Shown piece after piece: positions 432-6,086 of a stretch of DNA of 64,000 nt (position 1 is the stretch's first letter; each line of letters opens with the position of its first letter). Position numbers and translations under genes: made by a program. The notes under the pieces are model-generated. The model saw only the letters and a list, made by a program, of their open reading frames with translations, did no database searches and was not told the DNA's origin. The stretch comes from Bryobacterales bacterium (lineage in GTDB: Bacteria > Acidobacteriota > Terriglobia > Bryobacterales > Bryobacteraceae), in contig JAOAPR010000231.1 of the NCBI GenBank assembly GCA_025463005.1, forward strand, positions 1-64,000, read 5' to 3'.

Positions 432-1099
432 ACGATTCCCTCTATTTCATTCACGTTTTCGATGATTGCCACTGCCTTTTCTTCTTCAAAGAGGCGCAGA
501 ATCTCAGCTCGGCGCGAATGGCCGTGCGAAACGACTCCGATGAACGGTACACCGGCGGCGCGAGCAGCCCGGGCGTCGTCGACCGTATCGCCGACGTACC
601 AGATTTTTCGCTCGGGATTCATGCGCTGGATGGCGAGTAGGCCATCGGGAGCCGGTTTGGAGTTGGTGACGTGCTCTGCGCACAAGCGCGGATCGAATGA
701 GCAATCCGGCGCGAACCGCTTGAGCGTGATTTCGGCCTCGTATTGCAGGCGGCCGGTGAAGATCGCCAGGCCGAACCGTTGGCGCAGCCGCTCCAGCAAT
801 CCCTGCTTGGGGAACCACTGTTCGCGCTGGATAAGACCATCGCCGTTATTACCAATAAAGATCTGGTTGAAATAGTCGACGACGACGTCGTAGGGAACTT
901 CGACGCCCAGATCAGCGGCGATCTTCTGAGAAAGCGCCCAGTCGTTGTTCCAGCCGCCCTGATTCTTGTAGTCCTGGATCAGGTCCCGCTCGATGCGCCG
1001 GCCGGCGAAGTGTTCGACGGTCTGGACGATCGCTTCGCGATAGGATTCGGTCACCTCCGCGAGCACGCCATCCATGTCGAACACGATTAGCCCTTCCAC
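428..1099 (-). CDS. HAD-superfamily phosphatase, candidate histidinol-phosphate phosphatase
   Basis: A 223-residue HAD hydrolase. Motif I is FDMDGVLAE near the N-terminus, motif II is IFTGR, the motif III lysine is in NSKPAPDG, and motif IV is VGDTVDD, so all catalytic motifs are intact. I place the start at GTG 1099 ([11 protein letters not shown]), which has a GGAG ribosome-binding site about seven bases upstream and overlaps the end of hisC by 13 bases; longer versions would run further into hisC. The gene sits between hisC and hisB with overlaps on both sides. Histidinol-phosphate phosphatase is the step least conserved between organisms, and none is otherwise visible in the operon. I therefore infer that this protein does it. 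The function is from context, not from a diagnostic motif. Confidence 0.85.
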
Positions 1100-2145
1100 A
1101 AACTCTCCAGTTCGGCGAGGAAGCGCTCCACCTGGCCGCGCGTGCCGATGGTGACCCGTACACACCCGGGAATTTCATAACTCCGGTCGCGCACCAGAAC
1201 GCCGCGCTCGCGAAGTGCGTCGCGAATGGGAATCGCGCGGTCGCCTGCGTAGAACAGCACGAAGTTAGCCTGGCTCGGGAAGTAGCGGATACCCAGTCGC
1301 TCGAAGCCGACGTAGGCCAATTCGCGCGCGGCCAGCACCTCACCGACATATTGAGCGATATGCTCGCGATCCTGAACCCCTGCGCGGGCGGCAATCACTG
1401 CCAGCATATTCACGCTGTACGGCGATTGCGCCTTTCGTATCCATTGAGCGTTCTCGGCGCACGTGAACAGGCAGCCGCAGCGCATGGCGGCCATACCGTA
1501 GACCTTGGAAAACGTCCGGCTGACAAACAGGTTCTTGTATTTGCGGATCCAACGTAACGCCGTGACGCCGTAGAATTCGAAATATGCTTCGTCGATCAGT
1601 ACTGCTGCATCGGGCGCTGTCTCAAGAATTAGCTCGATTTGGTCCAGTCCGATCGCAGACCCGGTGGGGTTGTTGGGATTGGCGATCAGGATCGCGCGGG
1701 TTTCCGGCCGCATCGCCTCCAGAAAATCCGCCACCGGGAAACTAAGATCGCCGGCGTATTCGACTTCGCGGACGGAAGCTCCGGCCACTTCCGCATAGAA
1801 ACGGTACATCGCGTAGGAAGGCTTGAGGAGGAGCACGTCGTCGCCATCGTCGACAAAGGTGTTGATCAGAAGCTGGATCGCCTCGTCGGTACCGTTGGTG
1901 ATGGTGAACTCTTCGGGCGAGATACCGAAGAACGCGCCCAGGTCGCGGCGCGCATCCTGATACTCGGGATAGATGGTCAGGTGGTCGGCGGTCAGGTACT
2001 TCTGCACGCACTCGATCACTTTCGGAGAGCAGCCGACAGTGTTTTCGTTGAAGTCCAGGCGCAGTTTTCCGGCGCGTCCGCCCGAGGGCGGAGAATAAGG
2101 CGCCATGTCGCGTATCGCCTCGCGTGGTGTGAGGGCGTCAGACAC
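1087..2145 (-). CDS. hisC: Histidinol-phosphate aminotransferase
   Basis: PLP-dependent class I/II aminotransferase of 352 residues that converts imidazole-acetol phosphate plus glutamate to histidinol phosphate. Visible family features are LDFNENTVGCSP near the N-terminus, the ANPNNPTGS loop, DEAYFEFYG, and the PLP lysine in SRTFSKVYGMAAMRCG. The likely start is GTG 2145 (VSDALTPREAIR), just downstream of a GAGG sequence and overlapping the hisD stop by eight bases. An upstream ATG at 2196 would add 17 residues inside hisD and is less likely. It is overlapped at its 3' end by the HAD gene, consistent with one polycistronic mRNA. Confidence 0.95.
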   Translation of the reverse strand: MSDALTPREAIRDMAPYSPPSGGRAGKLRLDFNENTVGCSPKVIECVQKYLTADHLTIYPEYQDARRDLGAFFGISPEEFTITNGTDEAIQLLINTFVDDGDDVLLLKPSYAMYRFYAEVAGASVREVEYAGDLSFPVADFLEAMRPETRAILIANPNNPTGSAIGLDQIELILETAPDAAVLIDEAYFEFYGVTALRWIRKYKNLFVSRTFSKVYGMAAMRCGCLFTCAENAQWIRKAQSPYSVNMLAVIAARAGVQDREHIAQYVGEVLAARELAYVGFERLGIRYFPSQANFVLFYAGDRAIPIRDALRERGVLVRDRSYEIPGCVRVTIGTRGQVERFLAELESLWKG

Positions 2146-3361
2146 TCCGTACCTCGACTGATCGCGCATGTGCTTCCAGACCTTCGGCCCGAGCAAGCGT
2201 GGTCACTGCGGGCTCCAGCTTCTTTAGCGCGTCTGGACTCAACTCCTGCACGGAGATCACCTTGACGAAGTCCGCCGCGGACAATCCGCCGCGAAGGCGA
2301 GCCTGGCCCGACGTCGGCAGGACGTGATTGGGACCCGACGCGTAGTCTCCCGCAGCCTCGGGGCTGGACGGGCCTAGAAACACCGAGCCGGCGTTCTGGA
2401 TGGAACCCAGCAGTTCACGATCGTGCAACGCGAGATGCTCCGGCGCGAATGAATTCGAAAACTCGATCGCACGCTCTAGCGAATCGACGATGACGATCGC
2501 GCCGTTGTTGTCGATGGATGGGCGCGCTACGGCGGCGGTTGGCAGGGAAGCGAGCTGCCGCTCCAGAGCTTCGGCTACGGCCTCCGCAAACTCGCGCGAG
2601 GTTGTCAGCAGGATTGCCGACGCGTCGACATCGTGCTCGGCTTGGGCCAGCATGTCGGCGGCGATCCACTCTGGATTGCCTTGAGCGGCAATAATCACGA
2701 TCTCTGTCGGCCCGGCCACGAAGTCGATTCCGGTCTCCCCAGCGATCAGCTTTTTCGCCGCTGCGACATAGATGTTTCCCGGACCAACGATGCGATCGAC
2801 GCGGGGAACGGTGGCCGTTCCGTAAGCGAGTGCCGCGATGGCCTGCGCCCCGCCCATCTGAAAAAAATGCGTCACGCCGAGCCATTGGGCGATCCCCAGA
2901 ATCTCGGCGCTGGGGTGCGGGCAGGCGACGCACAGCGTTTTGACGCCTGCCACCTGCGCCGGGATGATGTTCATCAGCAGCGTGGAGGGCAGCGGATACC
3001 GGCCGGCGGGCGTGTAGGCGCCCATGGAATCGAGCGGCCGCACGATCTGGCCCAGCTTGCGGCCGTCCGGATATTCCACCATCTTCTCGATCGGGAGTTG
3101 CAGGCGCGCGTACTCGCGAATGTTGGCGTCCGCGATTCGCACGGCCCGCCCGAATTCCGGCTGGAGCGTTCCATGCACCGGGATGCGGACGCTCGGGCCT
3201 TCAAAACCGTCGAATTTGCGAGCGTATTCGAGCAGTGCGGCGTCGCCGTGGCGGCGAACATCTTCGAGGATCGGCGCGACAATGCGCTCGGCATCTTCCA
3301 GCCGTTGCGTTTTCCGCGCGATTAATGACTGCGCGGTCCGGTAATCGATGATCCGAATCAT
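2138..3361 (-). CDS. hisD: Histidinol dehydrogenase
   Basis: Zinc enzyme that oxidises L-histidinol to L-histidine in two NAD-dependent steps, the last of the pathway. At 407 residues it is slightly shorter than the usual 420-440. Recognisable blocks include YTPAGRYPLPSTLLMN, VGPGNIYVAAAKK, GPTEIVIIA, AQAEHDVDASAIL, SFAPEHLALHD and SGPNHVLPTSG, which contain the conserved Gln, Glu, His and Asp ligands and catalytic residues. It starts at ATG 3361, 15 bases after the hisG stop, and ends overlapping the hisC start. Confidence 0.97.
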   Translation of the reverse strand: MIRIIDYRTAQSLIARKTQRLEDAERIVAPILEDVRRHGDAALLEYARKFDGFEGPSVRIPVHGTLQPEFGRAVRIADANIREYARLQLPIEKMVEYPDGRKLGQIVRPLDSMGAYTPAGRYPLPSTLLMNIIPAQVAGVKTLCVACPHPSAEILGIAQWLGVTHFFQMGGAQAIAALAYGTATVPRVDRIVGPGNIYVAAAKKLIAGETGIDFVAGPTEIVIIAAQGNPEWIAADMLAQAEHDVDASAILLTTSREFAEAVAEALERQLASLPTAAVARPSIDNNGAIVIVDSLERAIEFSNSFAPEHLALHDRELLGSIQNAGSVFLGPSSPEAAGDYASGPNHVLPTSGQARLRGGLSAADFVKVISVQELSPDALKKLEPAVTTLARAEGLEAHARSVEVRSV

Positions 3362-3376
3362 ATGTGATGGTGCCAG

Positions 3377-4246
3377 CTACATTACGATTTTGTTCAACGG
3401 ATACTCGACGATGCCTTGTGCGCCGGCTTCCTTCAAGCGCGGAATGATCGAGCGCACGGTGGTTTCGTCCAGAATCGTGTTGAGCGCCAGCCAGTCGCCT
3501 TCGCTCAAGGGCGATATAGTCGGTTTTTTCAATGCCGGCAGGACACCCAGGACGGCCTCCAGGTTCTTCTTCTCCACATTCAGCATCAGCCCGACTTTTC
3601 CCAGCGCGTTGATGGCGCCTTCGAGCAGCATGCGGATGTCTTCCAGCTTGCGCCGCTTCCACGAATCCTTCCAGGAATCCAGATTGGCGATGAGCTGCGT
3701 ATTCGATTCGAGCACCGTCTCGACGATGCGCAGGTTGTTGGCGCGCAGGGAAGAGCCGGTTTCGGTGACTTCGACGATCGCATCGGCAAGCACCGGAGGC
3801 TTTACCTCGGTCGCGCCCCAACTGAACTCGACCTTGGCGCTGACGCCGTGGGATTTCAGATACCTCTCGGTGGCCGCCACCAGCTCAGTCGCGATGATTT
3901 TGCCCTGCAGATCCTTGACGGACTGCACTGGCGACGACTCGGGCACCGCCAGCACCCAGCGCACTTTGCCGAAGCTCTGCTTGGCGTAAATTAGATCGGC
4001 GACGGTGTGAACGTTTGCGTCATTTTCCTGGACCCAATCGCGGCCGGTGAGACCGGCGTCTAGCACCCCATCTTCGACGTAACGGGCCATTTCCTGAGCG
4101 CGAATCAGCATGCACTCGACCTCGGGATCGTCAATAGCCGGGAAATAAGAGCGGCTGCTGACGGTGATCTGAAATCCGGCGCGGCGGAACAGATCGACCG
4201 TCGCGTTTTCGAGACTGCCTTTGGGAATGCCGAGTTTCAGTTTCAT
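3377..4246 (-). CDS. hisG: ATP phosphoribosyltransferase, long form
   Basis: First enzyme of histidine synthesis (ATP + PRPP to phosphoribosyl-ATP). It begins [14 protein letters not shown] at ATG 4246; the frame remains open upstream into the repeat but has no homology there. The 289-residue length and the C-terminal block ending in [31 protein letters not shown] show that it is the long form, with the C-terminal ACT-like regulatory domain. It should be feedback-inhibited by histidine and needs no His[20 protein letters not shown] and the acidic [13 protein letters not shown] stretch (PRPP binding) are present. It is separated from hisI by a 117-base spacer filled with palindromic repeats. 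Confidence 0.96.
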
Positions 4247-4363: not shown

Positions 4364-4738
4364 TTAGTTGCCATAGACCGCCTCCGGATCGTAAGCTCGC
4401 GCCTCGGTTATTTTCCATTCGTTCCCATCGAGCTTGCGGACGAAGCAGCTCTCATAGCCTTCATGACAGACGCCCGGGCCGAGCGCCTCACATTTGAGGA
4501 GCAGTGCGTCCTGATCGCAGTCGGTCGAGATTTCCTTGACCACCAGCTTGTGGCCGGAGGTCTCGCCCTTGAGCCAGAGCTTGTTGCGCGAGCGGCTATA
4601 GAACACCGCGTTGCCGGTTTCGACGGTCTTGCGGAAGGCTTCCTCGTTCATGAAACCAACCATCAGGACGCGTCCGCTTTTCCAATCCTGAATTACCGCG
4701 GCCACCAGGCCGTCCAGTTTGCTGAAATCCAGATCCAT
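4364..4738 (-). CDS. hisI: Phosphoribosyl-AMP cyclohydrolase
   Basis: Opens the adenine ring of phosphoribosyl-AMP (third step of histidine synthesis). It is a stand-alone enzyme of 124 residues without the HisE pyrophosphohydrolase domain. Characteristic sequence: QDWKSGRVLMVGFMNEEAF, FYSRSRNKLWLKGETSGH, and the metal-binding DCDQD plus the C-x6-C zinc motif in CHEGYESCF. The start chosen is ATG 4738 (MDLDFSKLDGLV), matching the usual N-terminus. ATG 4753 is possible, whereas ATG 4786 lies inside the attenuator terminator. It is the first structural gene of the operon, right behind the attenuator. Confidence 0.95.
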   Translation of the reverse strand: MDLDFSKLDGLVAAVIQDWKSGRVLMVGFMNEEAFRKTVETGNAVFYSRSRNKLWLKGETSGHKLVVKEISTDCDQDALLLKCEALGPGVCHEGYESCFVRKLDGNEWKITEARAYDPEAVYGN

Positions 4739-4756
4739 AAGATTTGCACCCATAAC

Positions 4757-4783
4757 AAAAAAGCCCACCGTTTCCGGCGGGCT
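4757..4783 (-). terminator. his attenuator terminator hairpin
   Basis: On the minus strand AGCCCGCCG, a GAAA tetraloop, and CGGTGGGCT form a nine-pair stem (one G-T pair). It runs directly into six T residues (4762-4757, the first being the last stem base). It lies between the leader peptide stop (4813) and the hisI start (4738), so it would stop transcription before the structural genes. The 5' arm is also the target of the antiterminator segment in the leader peptide. Confidence 0.92.
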
Positions 4784-4827
4784 CATTTAATCTCACTTCC
4801 AGTTAACTTGGTTTATGCGTGAGCCCG
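4778..4827 (-). promoter_or_regulatory. his antiterminator pairing
   Basis: CGGGCTCA at 4827-4820, inside the last codons of the leader peptide (Arg-Ala-His), is perfectly complementary over eight bases to TGAGCCCG at 4785-4778. The latter includes most of the 5' arm of the terminator. Pairing of the two is mutually exclusive with the terminator. A ribosome stalled on the His codons (down to 4840) would leave 4827-4820 free. A ribosome that reaches the stop at 4815-4813 would cover it. An additional six-base pairing, GCACCA (4858-4853) with TGGTGC (4837-4832), could form an upstream hairpin. Confidence 0.85.
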
Positions 4828-4881
4828 TATCGCACCAAAGTGGTGGTGGTGATGGTGCCGATGATGTCGGGCGACGAACAT
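4813..4881 (-). CDS. hisL: Histidine-rich his operon leader peptide
   Basis: A 22-codon reading frame beginning at ATG 4881 and ending at TAA 4815-4813. It begins MFVAR and has His at codons 6, 7, 9-14 and 21, nine in all, including six in a row. Its function is to be translated, not to act: ribosome stalling at His codons under histidine shortage should switch the downstream RNA from terminator to antiterminator. No clear Shine-Dalgarno sequence precedes it; a good extended -10 box ends ten bases upstream, so the transcript may be leaderless. The design parallels the enterobacterial hisL attenuator, but the sequence is unrelated outside the His run. Confidence 0.9.
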   Translation of the reverse strand: MFVARHHRHHHHHHFGAIRAHA

Positions 4882-4890
4882 AGAAACCGA

Positions 4891-4899
4891 AGTATACCA
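4891..4899 (-). promoter_or_regulatory. Extended -10 promoter of the his operon
   Basis: TGG TATACT reads on the minus strand from 4899 to 4891, matching an extended -10 (TGnTATAAT-type) element. I see no good -35 at the normal spacing (it would lie in the 3' end of the preceding gene), as is common with extended -10 promoters. Expected initiation is near 4884, three bases or so before the leader ATG. The position just upstream of the leader peptide supports an independent his promoter despite the same-strand gene ahead. Confidence 0.6.
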
Positions 4900-4904
4900 G
4901 ATTT

Positions 4905-6086
4905 TCAAGCGGAGAGCGCCTGGTCCAGATCGGCGACGATATCTTCCGGCGCCTCAATGCCGATCGACACCCGCACCAGGTTGTCGCGGATCCCCAGCCG
5001 CTCGCGATGCTTGGGCGAAAGGTCGCGATGGGAAGCCATGGCCGGATATAGGATCATCGTGTGCACGTCGCCGAGCGAAGTAGCGCGCACAACCATTTGC
5101 AACTTCTCCATGAAGCGGAAGACTTCGGGGCGTCCCGCCTCGCGTAATTCGAACGCCACCAGCCCACCAAACCGATTCGGCGGGAACAGGCGAGCTATAG
5201 ATTCGGCATCAGGATGCCTGGGATCGCCTGGGAAAAATGTTCGTTCCACGCGCGGATGTGTGGCCAGCCAGGACGCGACGTTGCAGGCGTTGGCACACTG
5301 CCGCTCCACGCGCAGCGCCAGCGTCTTGATCCCGCGCAAGGTCAGATAACTCTCGAACGGGCCCATTACAGGGCCGATCGTGCGCGACAGCGTGCGAAGC
5401 GCGTCATAGTTCGCCTGATCCGCCACAATTACGCCGCCGAGCACGTCTCCGTGGCCTGCCAGATATTTGGTGGCGCTGTGACATACCATATTCGCGCCGA
5501 GCTCAAGAGGCCTGACCAGCAGCGGTGTGGCGAAGGTATTGTCCACGATGAGCGGCACGCCCGCGGCACGGCACATCGCGGCGATCTTATCCATCGCCCC
5601 CACCCGCAGCAGTGGATTCGATATGGTTTCCATGATCATCGCGCCGACTTTGGATTCGGTCAGCGCCGCCTCGACCGCCTTCAGATCGCAGACGTCGACG
5701 TGCGTGGTCTCGACCCCCATGGGTCCTAGAACGTTCATCAGCAGCCCGGTAGTGGCTCCGTACATCATGTTCGCCGCGACCACGTGCTTGGGCCGGTCCA
5801 TCAAAGCCGCCAGCAGGGCCGTGTGTATCGCGATCATGCCCGAAGCGCAGGCGATCGCGCCGGCGCCGCTTTCGAGCTCCCGGACTAATTCCTCAAGCGC
5901 CGAGCGGGTGGGATTGTCGTAACGAGCGTATGACGGGCCGGATTCCTCCAGCCCAAACACGCGGTCGAGCTGGTCCATCGATTCATAGGCGTAGCTCGCG
6001 GCAGTGTAAATCGGCGTCGTGACCGGAATAAAGCTGCCGGATTTACGACGATCGCCCCAATGAACGGCCTTGGTTTCGATTTTCAT
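4905..6086 (-). CDS. Cys/Met metabolism PLP-dependent enzyme (cystathionine gamma-synthase/lyase type)
   Basis: Fold type I PLP enzyme of 393 residues. The PLP lysine is Lys207 in CHSATKYLAGHGDVLGG. YARYDNPTR (about 53-61) and the VDNTFATPLL aspartate block are typical of the trans-sulfuration family. C-terminal features are ATSLGDVHTMILYPA and VRVSIGIEAPEDIV. Members include cystathionine gamma-synthase, cystathionine gamma-lyase, methionine gamma-lyase and O-acylhomoserine sulfhydrylase; sequence reading alone does not separate them. Its ATGA start overlaps the cysS stop, so the two are translationally coupled. Pairing with cysteinyl-tRNA synthetase suggests a role in cysteine or homocysteine supply. 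Confidence 0.88.
   Translation of the reverse strand: MKIETKAVHWGDRRKSGSFIPVTTPIYTAASYAYESMDQLDRVFGLEESGPSYARYDNPTRSALEELVRELESGAGAIACASGMIAIHTALLAALMDRPKHVVAANMMYGATTGLLMNVLGPMGVETTHVDVCDLKAVEAALTESKVGAMIMETISNPLLRVGAMDKIAAMCRAAGVPLIVDNTFATPLLVRPLELGANMVCHSATKYLAGHGDVLGGVIVADQANYDALRTLSRTIGPVMGPFESYLTLRGIKTLALRVERQCANACNVASWLATHPRVERTFFPGDPRHPDAESIARLFPPNRFGGLVAFELREAGRPEVFRFMEKLQMVVRATSLGDVHTMILYPAMASHRDLSPKHRERLGIRDNLVRVSIGIEAPEDIVADLDQALSA

Follow-up and report, generated by a model that had tools for sequence, protein, structure and literature searches.

The 64,000-nucleotide stretch of DNA analyzed here (the window) carries histidine biosynthesis genes on its minus strand with a short reading frame rich in His codons directly upstream of hisI, and it raises the question of whether this frame senses histidine supply for the operon. 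The comparisons described below make it very probable that the element is a ribosome-mediated transcription attenuator of hisIGDC with a leaderless leader peptide. The genes concerned are as follows.

4364 to 4738, minus strand: hisI, phosphoribosyl-AMP cyclohydrolase, first operon gene (NCBIfam NF000768, above cut-off)
3377 to 4246, minus strand: hisG (TIGR00070, above cut-off)
2138 to 3361, minus strand: hisD (TIGR00069, above cut-off)
1087 to 2190, minus strand: hisC (TIGR01141, above cut-off)
1165 to 428, minus strand: HAD-type hydrolase gene (best model TIGR01548, below its cut-off)

The order on the minus strand is hisI, hisG, hisD, hisC, and the HAD-type hydrolase gene. The last of these overlaps the end of hisC and may encode the missing histidinol-phosphatase. 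The hisI start at 4738 was picked by conservation, with relatives matching from residue 5 or 6 of the longer frame; in-frame ATG codons also occur upstream of this conserved start, at 4753 and 4786. Because the longest hisI frame crosses the terminator, automated annotation may make hisI too long and miss the attenuator. The preceding gene, on the same strand, ends at 4905, is unrelated to the his genes, and resembles an enzyme of the cystathionine-synthase or methionine-lyase type, below the cut-offs shown. Among the matches listed, the closest named hisI sequences are from Bryobacteraceae and Bryobacterales metagenome-assembled genomes (MAGs), which places the window in the Acidobacteriota, as a preliminary description made from the sequence had supposed.

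The element upstream of hisI consists of the following parts.

4899 to 4898, minus strand: TG of an extended -10 element, next to the TATACT box
4891 to 4896, minus strand: putative -10 box TATACT, ending 9 nt 5′ of the leader ATG
4813 to 4881, minus strand: leader peptide gene, MFVARHHRHHHHHHFGAIRAHA and stop, 22 codons with nine His, six of them consecutive
4867 to 4875, minus strand: region 1, GTCGCCCGA, early leader codons able to pair with region 2
4820 to 4827, minus strand: region 2, CGGGCTCA, antiterminator octamer in leader codons 19 to 21 (2:3 partner-swap test)
4778 to 4785, minus strand: region 3, TGAGCCCG, common to the antiterminator and the 5′ arm of the terminator
4757 to 4784, minus strand: regions 3 and 4, intrinsic terminator with T-run (terminator scan; covariation in family f8)

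The 22-codon frame with nine His codons, six in a row, was found where the preliminary description had placed it, and the octamer at 4827 to 4820 is, as had been claimed, the exact reverse complement of 4785 to 4778. The terminator, GAGCCCGCCG-GAAA-CGGTGGGCTT, is also present at the place given for it, with a hairpin at 4784 to 4761, a GAAA loop, and six T residues at 4762 to 4757; its stem had been described as nine pairs, and the scan counts ten with G-U pairs allowed. The -10 box, which ends 9 nt short of the start codon and makes the leader probably leaderless, the protector pairing of regions 1 and 2, and the spread through the phylum go beyond that description. The 1:2 pairing GCCCG:CGGGC is present in the window's lowest-energy fold, and the fold of the 151-nt stretch is more stable than those of 199 of 200 dinucleotide shuffles (z = -3.66). 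A search of this stretch against Rfam gave eight matches up to an E value of 10, none at threshold and with no His_leader (RF00514) among them, and in 19 loci no family, His_leader included, reached threshold, which agrees with the earlier statement that the logic of hisL is built here from unrelated sequence. T-box covariance matches were absent both from the window's matches to E 10 and from the 19 loci. Frames with at least four His codons, a length of at most 35 amino acids, and a TANNNT box 13 to 17 nt upstream are rare by chance: the 64-kb window has one other, with no terminator, and 75 trpE, leuA, and ilvB loci (309,399 bases) have none. When the TANNNT condition is dropped, there are 4 such frames in the window and 11 in the 75 loci.

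From the leader, the spacing of its box, the terminator, the conserved alternative pairings, and the geometry of these parts, we infer a start site, stalling, termination, readthrough, and a response to histidine as follows. Transcription would begin at most a few bases from the leader ATG, and ribosomes would therefore load at the RNA's 5′ end with no Shine-Dalgarno site. If charged His-tRNA runs short, a ribosome would stall in the His run and cover region 1, and the free region 2 would pair with the emerging region 3, blocking the terminator and allowing the operon to be transcribed. When His-tRNA is plentiful, the ribosome would reach the stop codon and cover region 2, and regions 3 and 4 would form the terminator, ending transcription ahead of hisI. 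If no ribosome is present, region 1 may sequester region 2 and favor termination. The operon genes are thus probably turned up when histidine runs low. The coordinates suit this scheme, as the preliminary description had argued: region 2 comprises leader nt 55 to 62 and begins 15 nt past the start of His codon 14, so that by arithmetic a ribosome stalled in codons 6 to 14 leaves it free and one at the stop codon (nt 67 to 69) covers it, and the hairpin begins 28 nt past the leader stop.

Folding was modeled for 80 elements with the front edge of the ribosome assumed to lie 12 nt past the A-site base and with the RNA ending before the 3′ arm of the terminator. The average pairing of region 3 with upstream sequence was 0.79, 0.80, and 0.65 for stalls at the first, middle, and last His codons, respectively, and 0.16 with the ribosome at the stop codon, a clear modeled contrast. 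A clean switch (more than 0.4 stalled, less than 0.2 at the stop) was obtained for 52 of the 80 elements; the window's own element, with 0.66 stalled and 0.31 at the stop, falls outside this limit. Shuffling the 5′ part still gave 0.53, which indicates that part of the upstream pairing reflects plain G+C content, and the average with no ribosome was 0.65, contrary to a protector role of region 1. Folding of both alternatives, which had been proposed as a check, therefore bears out the difference between stalled and terminating ribosomes (0.80 versus 0.16) but not a full-length equilibrium switch, since a ribosome stalled in the His run does not stop the complete window RNA from forming the terminator at equilibrium. 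Antitermination must then be kinetic, won by timing, and equilibrium folding by itself does not prove the switch.

In an alignment of 16 of the 19 leader loci from the window's genus, the 2:3 core shows almost no variation and no covariation (73 of 500 shuffles scored as high), and the terminator varies on one side only; tests between families were run for this reason. Over 54 representatives of the 80 elements, the 2:3 duplex energy was -17.6 kcal/mol with the element's own partner versus -15.7 kcal/mol with swapped partners; none of 20,000 permutations was as good (z = -5.8), and in 40 of the 54 the own partner outdid the median of the swapped ones. With one random member drawn per group in 50 draws, z was -5.4 over 44 genus-level groups and -4.5 over 16 family-level groups, four of the latter being named loci placed by hand, with the named Bryobacterales group possibly overlapping family f1, that of the window. 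The 1:2 pairing behaved similarly, with z values of -5.8 (54 elements), -4.0 (genus level), and -3.2 (family level), and a control, the untranscribed stretch just upstream of the start, gave -0.5, -0.9, and -0.6. In single elements, the 2:3 pairing exceeded dinucleotide shuffles at p ≤0.05 in 50 of 82, the window's own reaching p = 0.08. Compensatory changes are seen directly in family f8 (18 sequences), where 91.9% of antiterminator cells are paired, with C-G/U-A changes, and 94.4% of terminator cells are paired, with none of 500 shuffles as high in either case. These comparisons indicate that an antiterminator mutually exclusive with the terminator is conserved by compensatory change, and the His run is retained in relatives together with the two alternative helices, which change together between families, so that the attenuator survives the refuting condition set in the preliminary description. 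They also indicate that the protector pairing of region 1 is selected for. In the genus alignment, four sequences have replaced U-A by C-G in the 1:2 register GTCGC:GCGAC, a score reached by 19 of 500 shuffles; the window's own pairing lies in the neighboring register GCCCG:CGGGC. The putative protector role of region 1 comes from comparison, folding not favoring the 1:2 pairing in most elements.

A His-rich leader with TANNNT 13 to 17 nt before its start was found in 82 of 136 regions upstream of hisI, and in 80 of these 82 a terminator lies 17 to 56 nt past the leader stop. The limit for this count was three His codons, and L021, L045, and L056 carry only three. The 136 regions comprise 58 from a search of relatives (57 of 61 genomes matched, with G052 giving a second, weak match), 10 named loci picked out of 80 listed, and 68 from a search of the phylum (128 of 198 genomes matched, of which 70 were examined, 30 as listed and 40 hand-picked, with two repeats); left out were L139 and L140 (repeats), L059 and L063 (peptides as in L019 and L032), and L103 (weak). 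Leaders were present in 41/58, 9/10, and 32/68 of these subsets, respectively, and the fair-sample part is 41/58 plus 32/68, as the named loci were picked for a visible His-rich frame. By family, the leader occurs in 31/33 regions of f1, 18/19 of f8 (L174 has its box at 12 nt), 6/6 of f29, 2/2 of f49, 2/3 of f51, 1/2 of f2 (the other has a TTG start and a box at 12 nt), 6/18 of f3, 0/1 of f5, and 1/1 in each of f4, f6, f7, f38, and f63. It also occurs in 2/2 regions of f20, there with no T-run terminator. The twentieth f8 genome, L331, which lies outside the 136-region set, has the leader too. The comparisons indicate that the His-attenuator design is spread over many families of Acidobacteriota. 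In L208 (f72), the His leader lies 5.2 kb before hisI and directly 5′ of a hisG-first operon with hisI late, so the leader goes with the operon's first gene.

Several genomes depart from this pattern. L144 and L153 (f20) keep the His leader followed by a hairpin with no T-run, and in these genomes translation or Rho may have taken over control. L023 retains the box and terminator with no leader in between, which looks like a natural, deletion-like loss of the sensor. In L016 a box was seen and no leader was found upstream of hisI, and L020 has no leader within the 254 nt examined. The element was found in none of 12 genomes of g17 and g20 within f3; six g17 genomes (L037, L038, L039, L043, L048, and L051) carry a motif like GAGCTTGATATTCTGAGATTCTGGC upstream of hisI. 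No element was seen in up to 9.5 kb around hisI in distant genomes, among them those of f26, f28, f37, and f52, each family being represented by one to six. A hisG search covered 19 genomes; the 15 from f3 have no hisG other than a distant one elsewhere. A MAG titled Armatimonadetes (L068) carries a leader and terminator before hisI-hisG at 2856 to 2986 and a HisG very like that of the window, which may reflect transfer, misbinning, or an older origin. When 41 genomes were searched with an RNA model built from the genus element, 23 gave a match at the hisI site and no second strong copy was found; of five weaker extra matches inspected, none has a His leader. The same design was also sought at other amino acid loci (25 each of trpE, leuA, and ilvB among those listed, the gene being found in 24, 23, and 25 of 25 genomes, respectively), and no locus combined a -10 box and a terminator with enough Trp, Leu, or Val/Ile/Leu codons.

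When the leader start was chosen by His codons alone and no box was required, TANNNT still lay at 13 to 17 nt in 78 of 82 elements, against a background of 3.3%; among 80 elements, the spacing is 14 nt in 36 and 15 nt in 32, 35 have the TG of an extended -10 element, and just one has a Shine-Dalgarno-like 5-mer. A -10 box about 12 nt before the start codon with no Shine-Dalgarno sequence is the signature of leaderless genes in a passage of PMC3160421, where such genes are predicted in all three Acidobacteria genomes tested. With the box ending 9 nt 5′ of the ATG, the window's RNA is expected to begin no more than a few bases from that codon, and the His leader is probably leaderless. The same attenuator could instead have an ordinary 5′ untranslated leader, with TANNNT unused and transcription starting further upstream. 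A simple sigma-70 scan of the window, which found no promoter and no -35 element at the leader, would suit such an arrangement, and the promoter reading there comes solely from the conserved -10 box; likewise, in 38 of the 80 elements no -35 candidate matches at more than 3 of 6 positions. The recurrent box spacing, the near absence of Shine-Dalgarno-like sequences, and the leaderless genes of the same signature in the phylum make this arrangement unlikely.

Two further readings would deny regulated termination altogether. If the leader acted on translation, feeding or blocking ribosomes for hisI while termination was unregulated, the two f20 genomes that keep the leader with no T-run terminator would be readily explained, and part of PMC4833913 proposes reinitiation at leader genes for a set of bacteria that includes Acidobacteria. 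That proposal involves distances of 10 to 11 bp, whereas the leader stop lies 42 to 144 nt before the hisI match; in addition, a hairpin with T-run occurs in 80 of 82 elements and the conserved alternative pairing involves a terminator arm, so that this explanation is very improbable. Slightly less probable still is that the hairpin ends transcription of the upstream gene and that the frame is a chance occurrence or a metal-binding His peptide. An unrelated gene does end nearby on the same strand, and the two best extra matches of the RNA model are gene-end terminators of like sequence. However, His leaders recur before the first his gene and those of the same form are absent from the trpE, leuA, and ilvB loci, the swap tests tie regions 1, 2, and 3 to one another, and the promoter box sits between the upstream gene and the leader. 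Attenuation of transcription, the interpretation of the preliminary description, is thus well supported by comparison.

Elements of this kind are known from other bacteria. In gammaproteobacterial hisL, a His-rich leader peptide and alternative antiterminator and terminator helices precede the his operon, as outlined in an excerpt of PMC9413887. The window element resembles hisL (RF00514) in its His-rich leader, alternative helices, and position, and differs from it in sequence, with no Rfam model matching at threshold, in the operon starting with hisI, and in a leader that appears leaderless. The hisL frame itself is preceded by a 5′ leader that contains a ribosome site. Published accounts of His attenuators cover Gammaproteobacteria as well as three lineages of Firmicutes, whose candidates have three to five consecutive His codons (portions of PMC9413887), and hisS leaders in bacilli (PMC2965389, in part). 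Like the element studied here, the Firmicutes candidates were predicted by comparison and combine a His-codon leader, a terminator, and an antiterminator; they belong to another phylum, leaderless starts are not mentioned for them in those portions, and the window has a run of six. In Sinorhizobium meliloti, the RNA 5′ end of the trpL attenuator was mapped by experiment to the ATG of the leader ORF (a section of PMC7298713); the RNA predicted here would likewise start at or close to the leader ATG, whereas trpL responds to tryptophan, belongs to Alphaproteobacteria, and has a mapped start. Leaderless Cys-rich short ORFs of mycobacteria (Canestrari 2020) are called an attenuator in parts of PMC9031893 and PMC9094748, the former wording them as control of downstream translation, and were foreseen in a passage of PMC4633059. 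These also combine a leaderless short ORF with a codon run for the amino acid, which is cysteine; in the present set, 80 of 82 elements have a T-run terminator after the leader. The kind of element is therefore already known. The lineage, sequence, and combination look new: literature searches, their long result lists covered in part, found no description of His attenuation in Acidobacteria, in line with the earlier claim that none was known, although the survey of attenuation across bacteria by Lopatovskaya (2010) may mention it.

A broader reading is offered tentatively, at a little below even likelihood: one leaderless His attenuator may predate the class split of Acidobacteriota and have been kept by descent, with the antiterminator sequence replaced wholesale between families and the logic of the switch intact. 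With the start codon at the very 5′ end, the first codons would double as the protector strand, and 70S loading on the 5′ AUG would be part of the sensor. The natural versions, including exchanged pairing sequences and the apparent leader loss in L023, would form a ready test set for the coupling of leaderless initiation to transcription. For annotation, a small frame 14 to 15 nt past a TANNNT box and followed by a terminator is likely to be a leader gene. In the relevant section of Naville and Gautheret (PMC2965389), almost no predicted attenuator of Acidobacteria has an assigned function. The His attenuator would be one with a function, in a major soil phylum, and would tell how Acidobacteriota control histidine synthesis.
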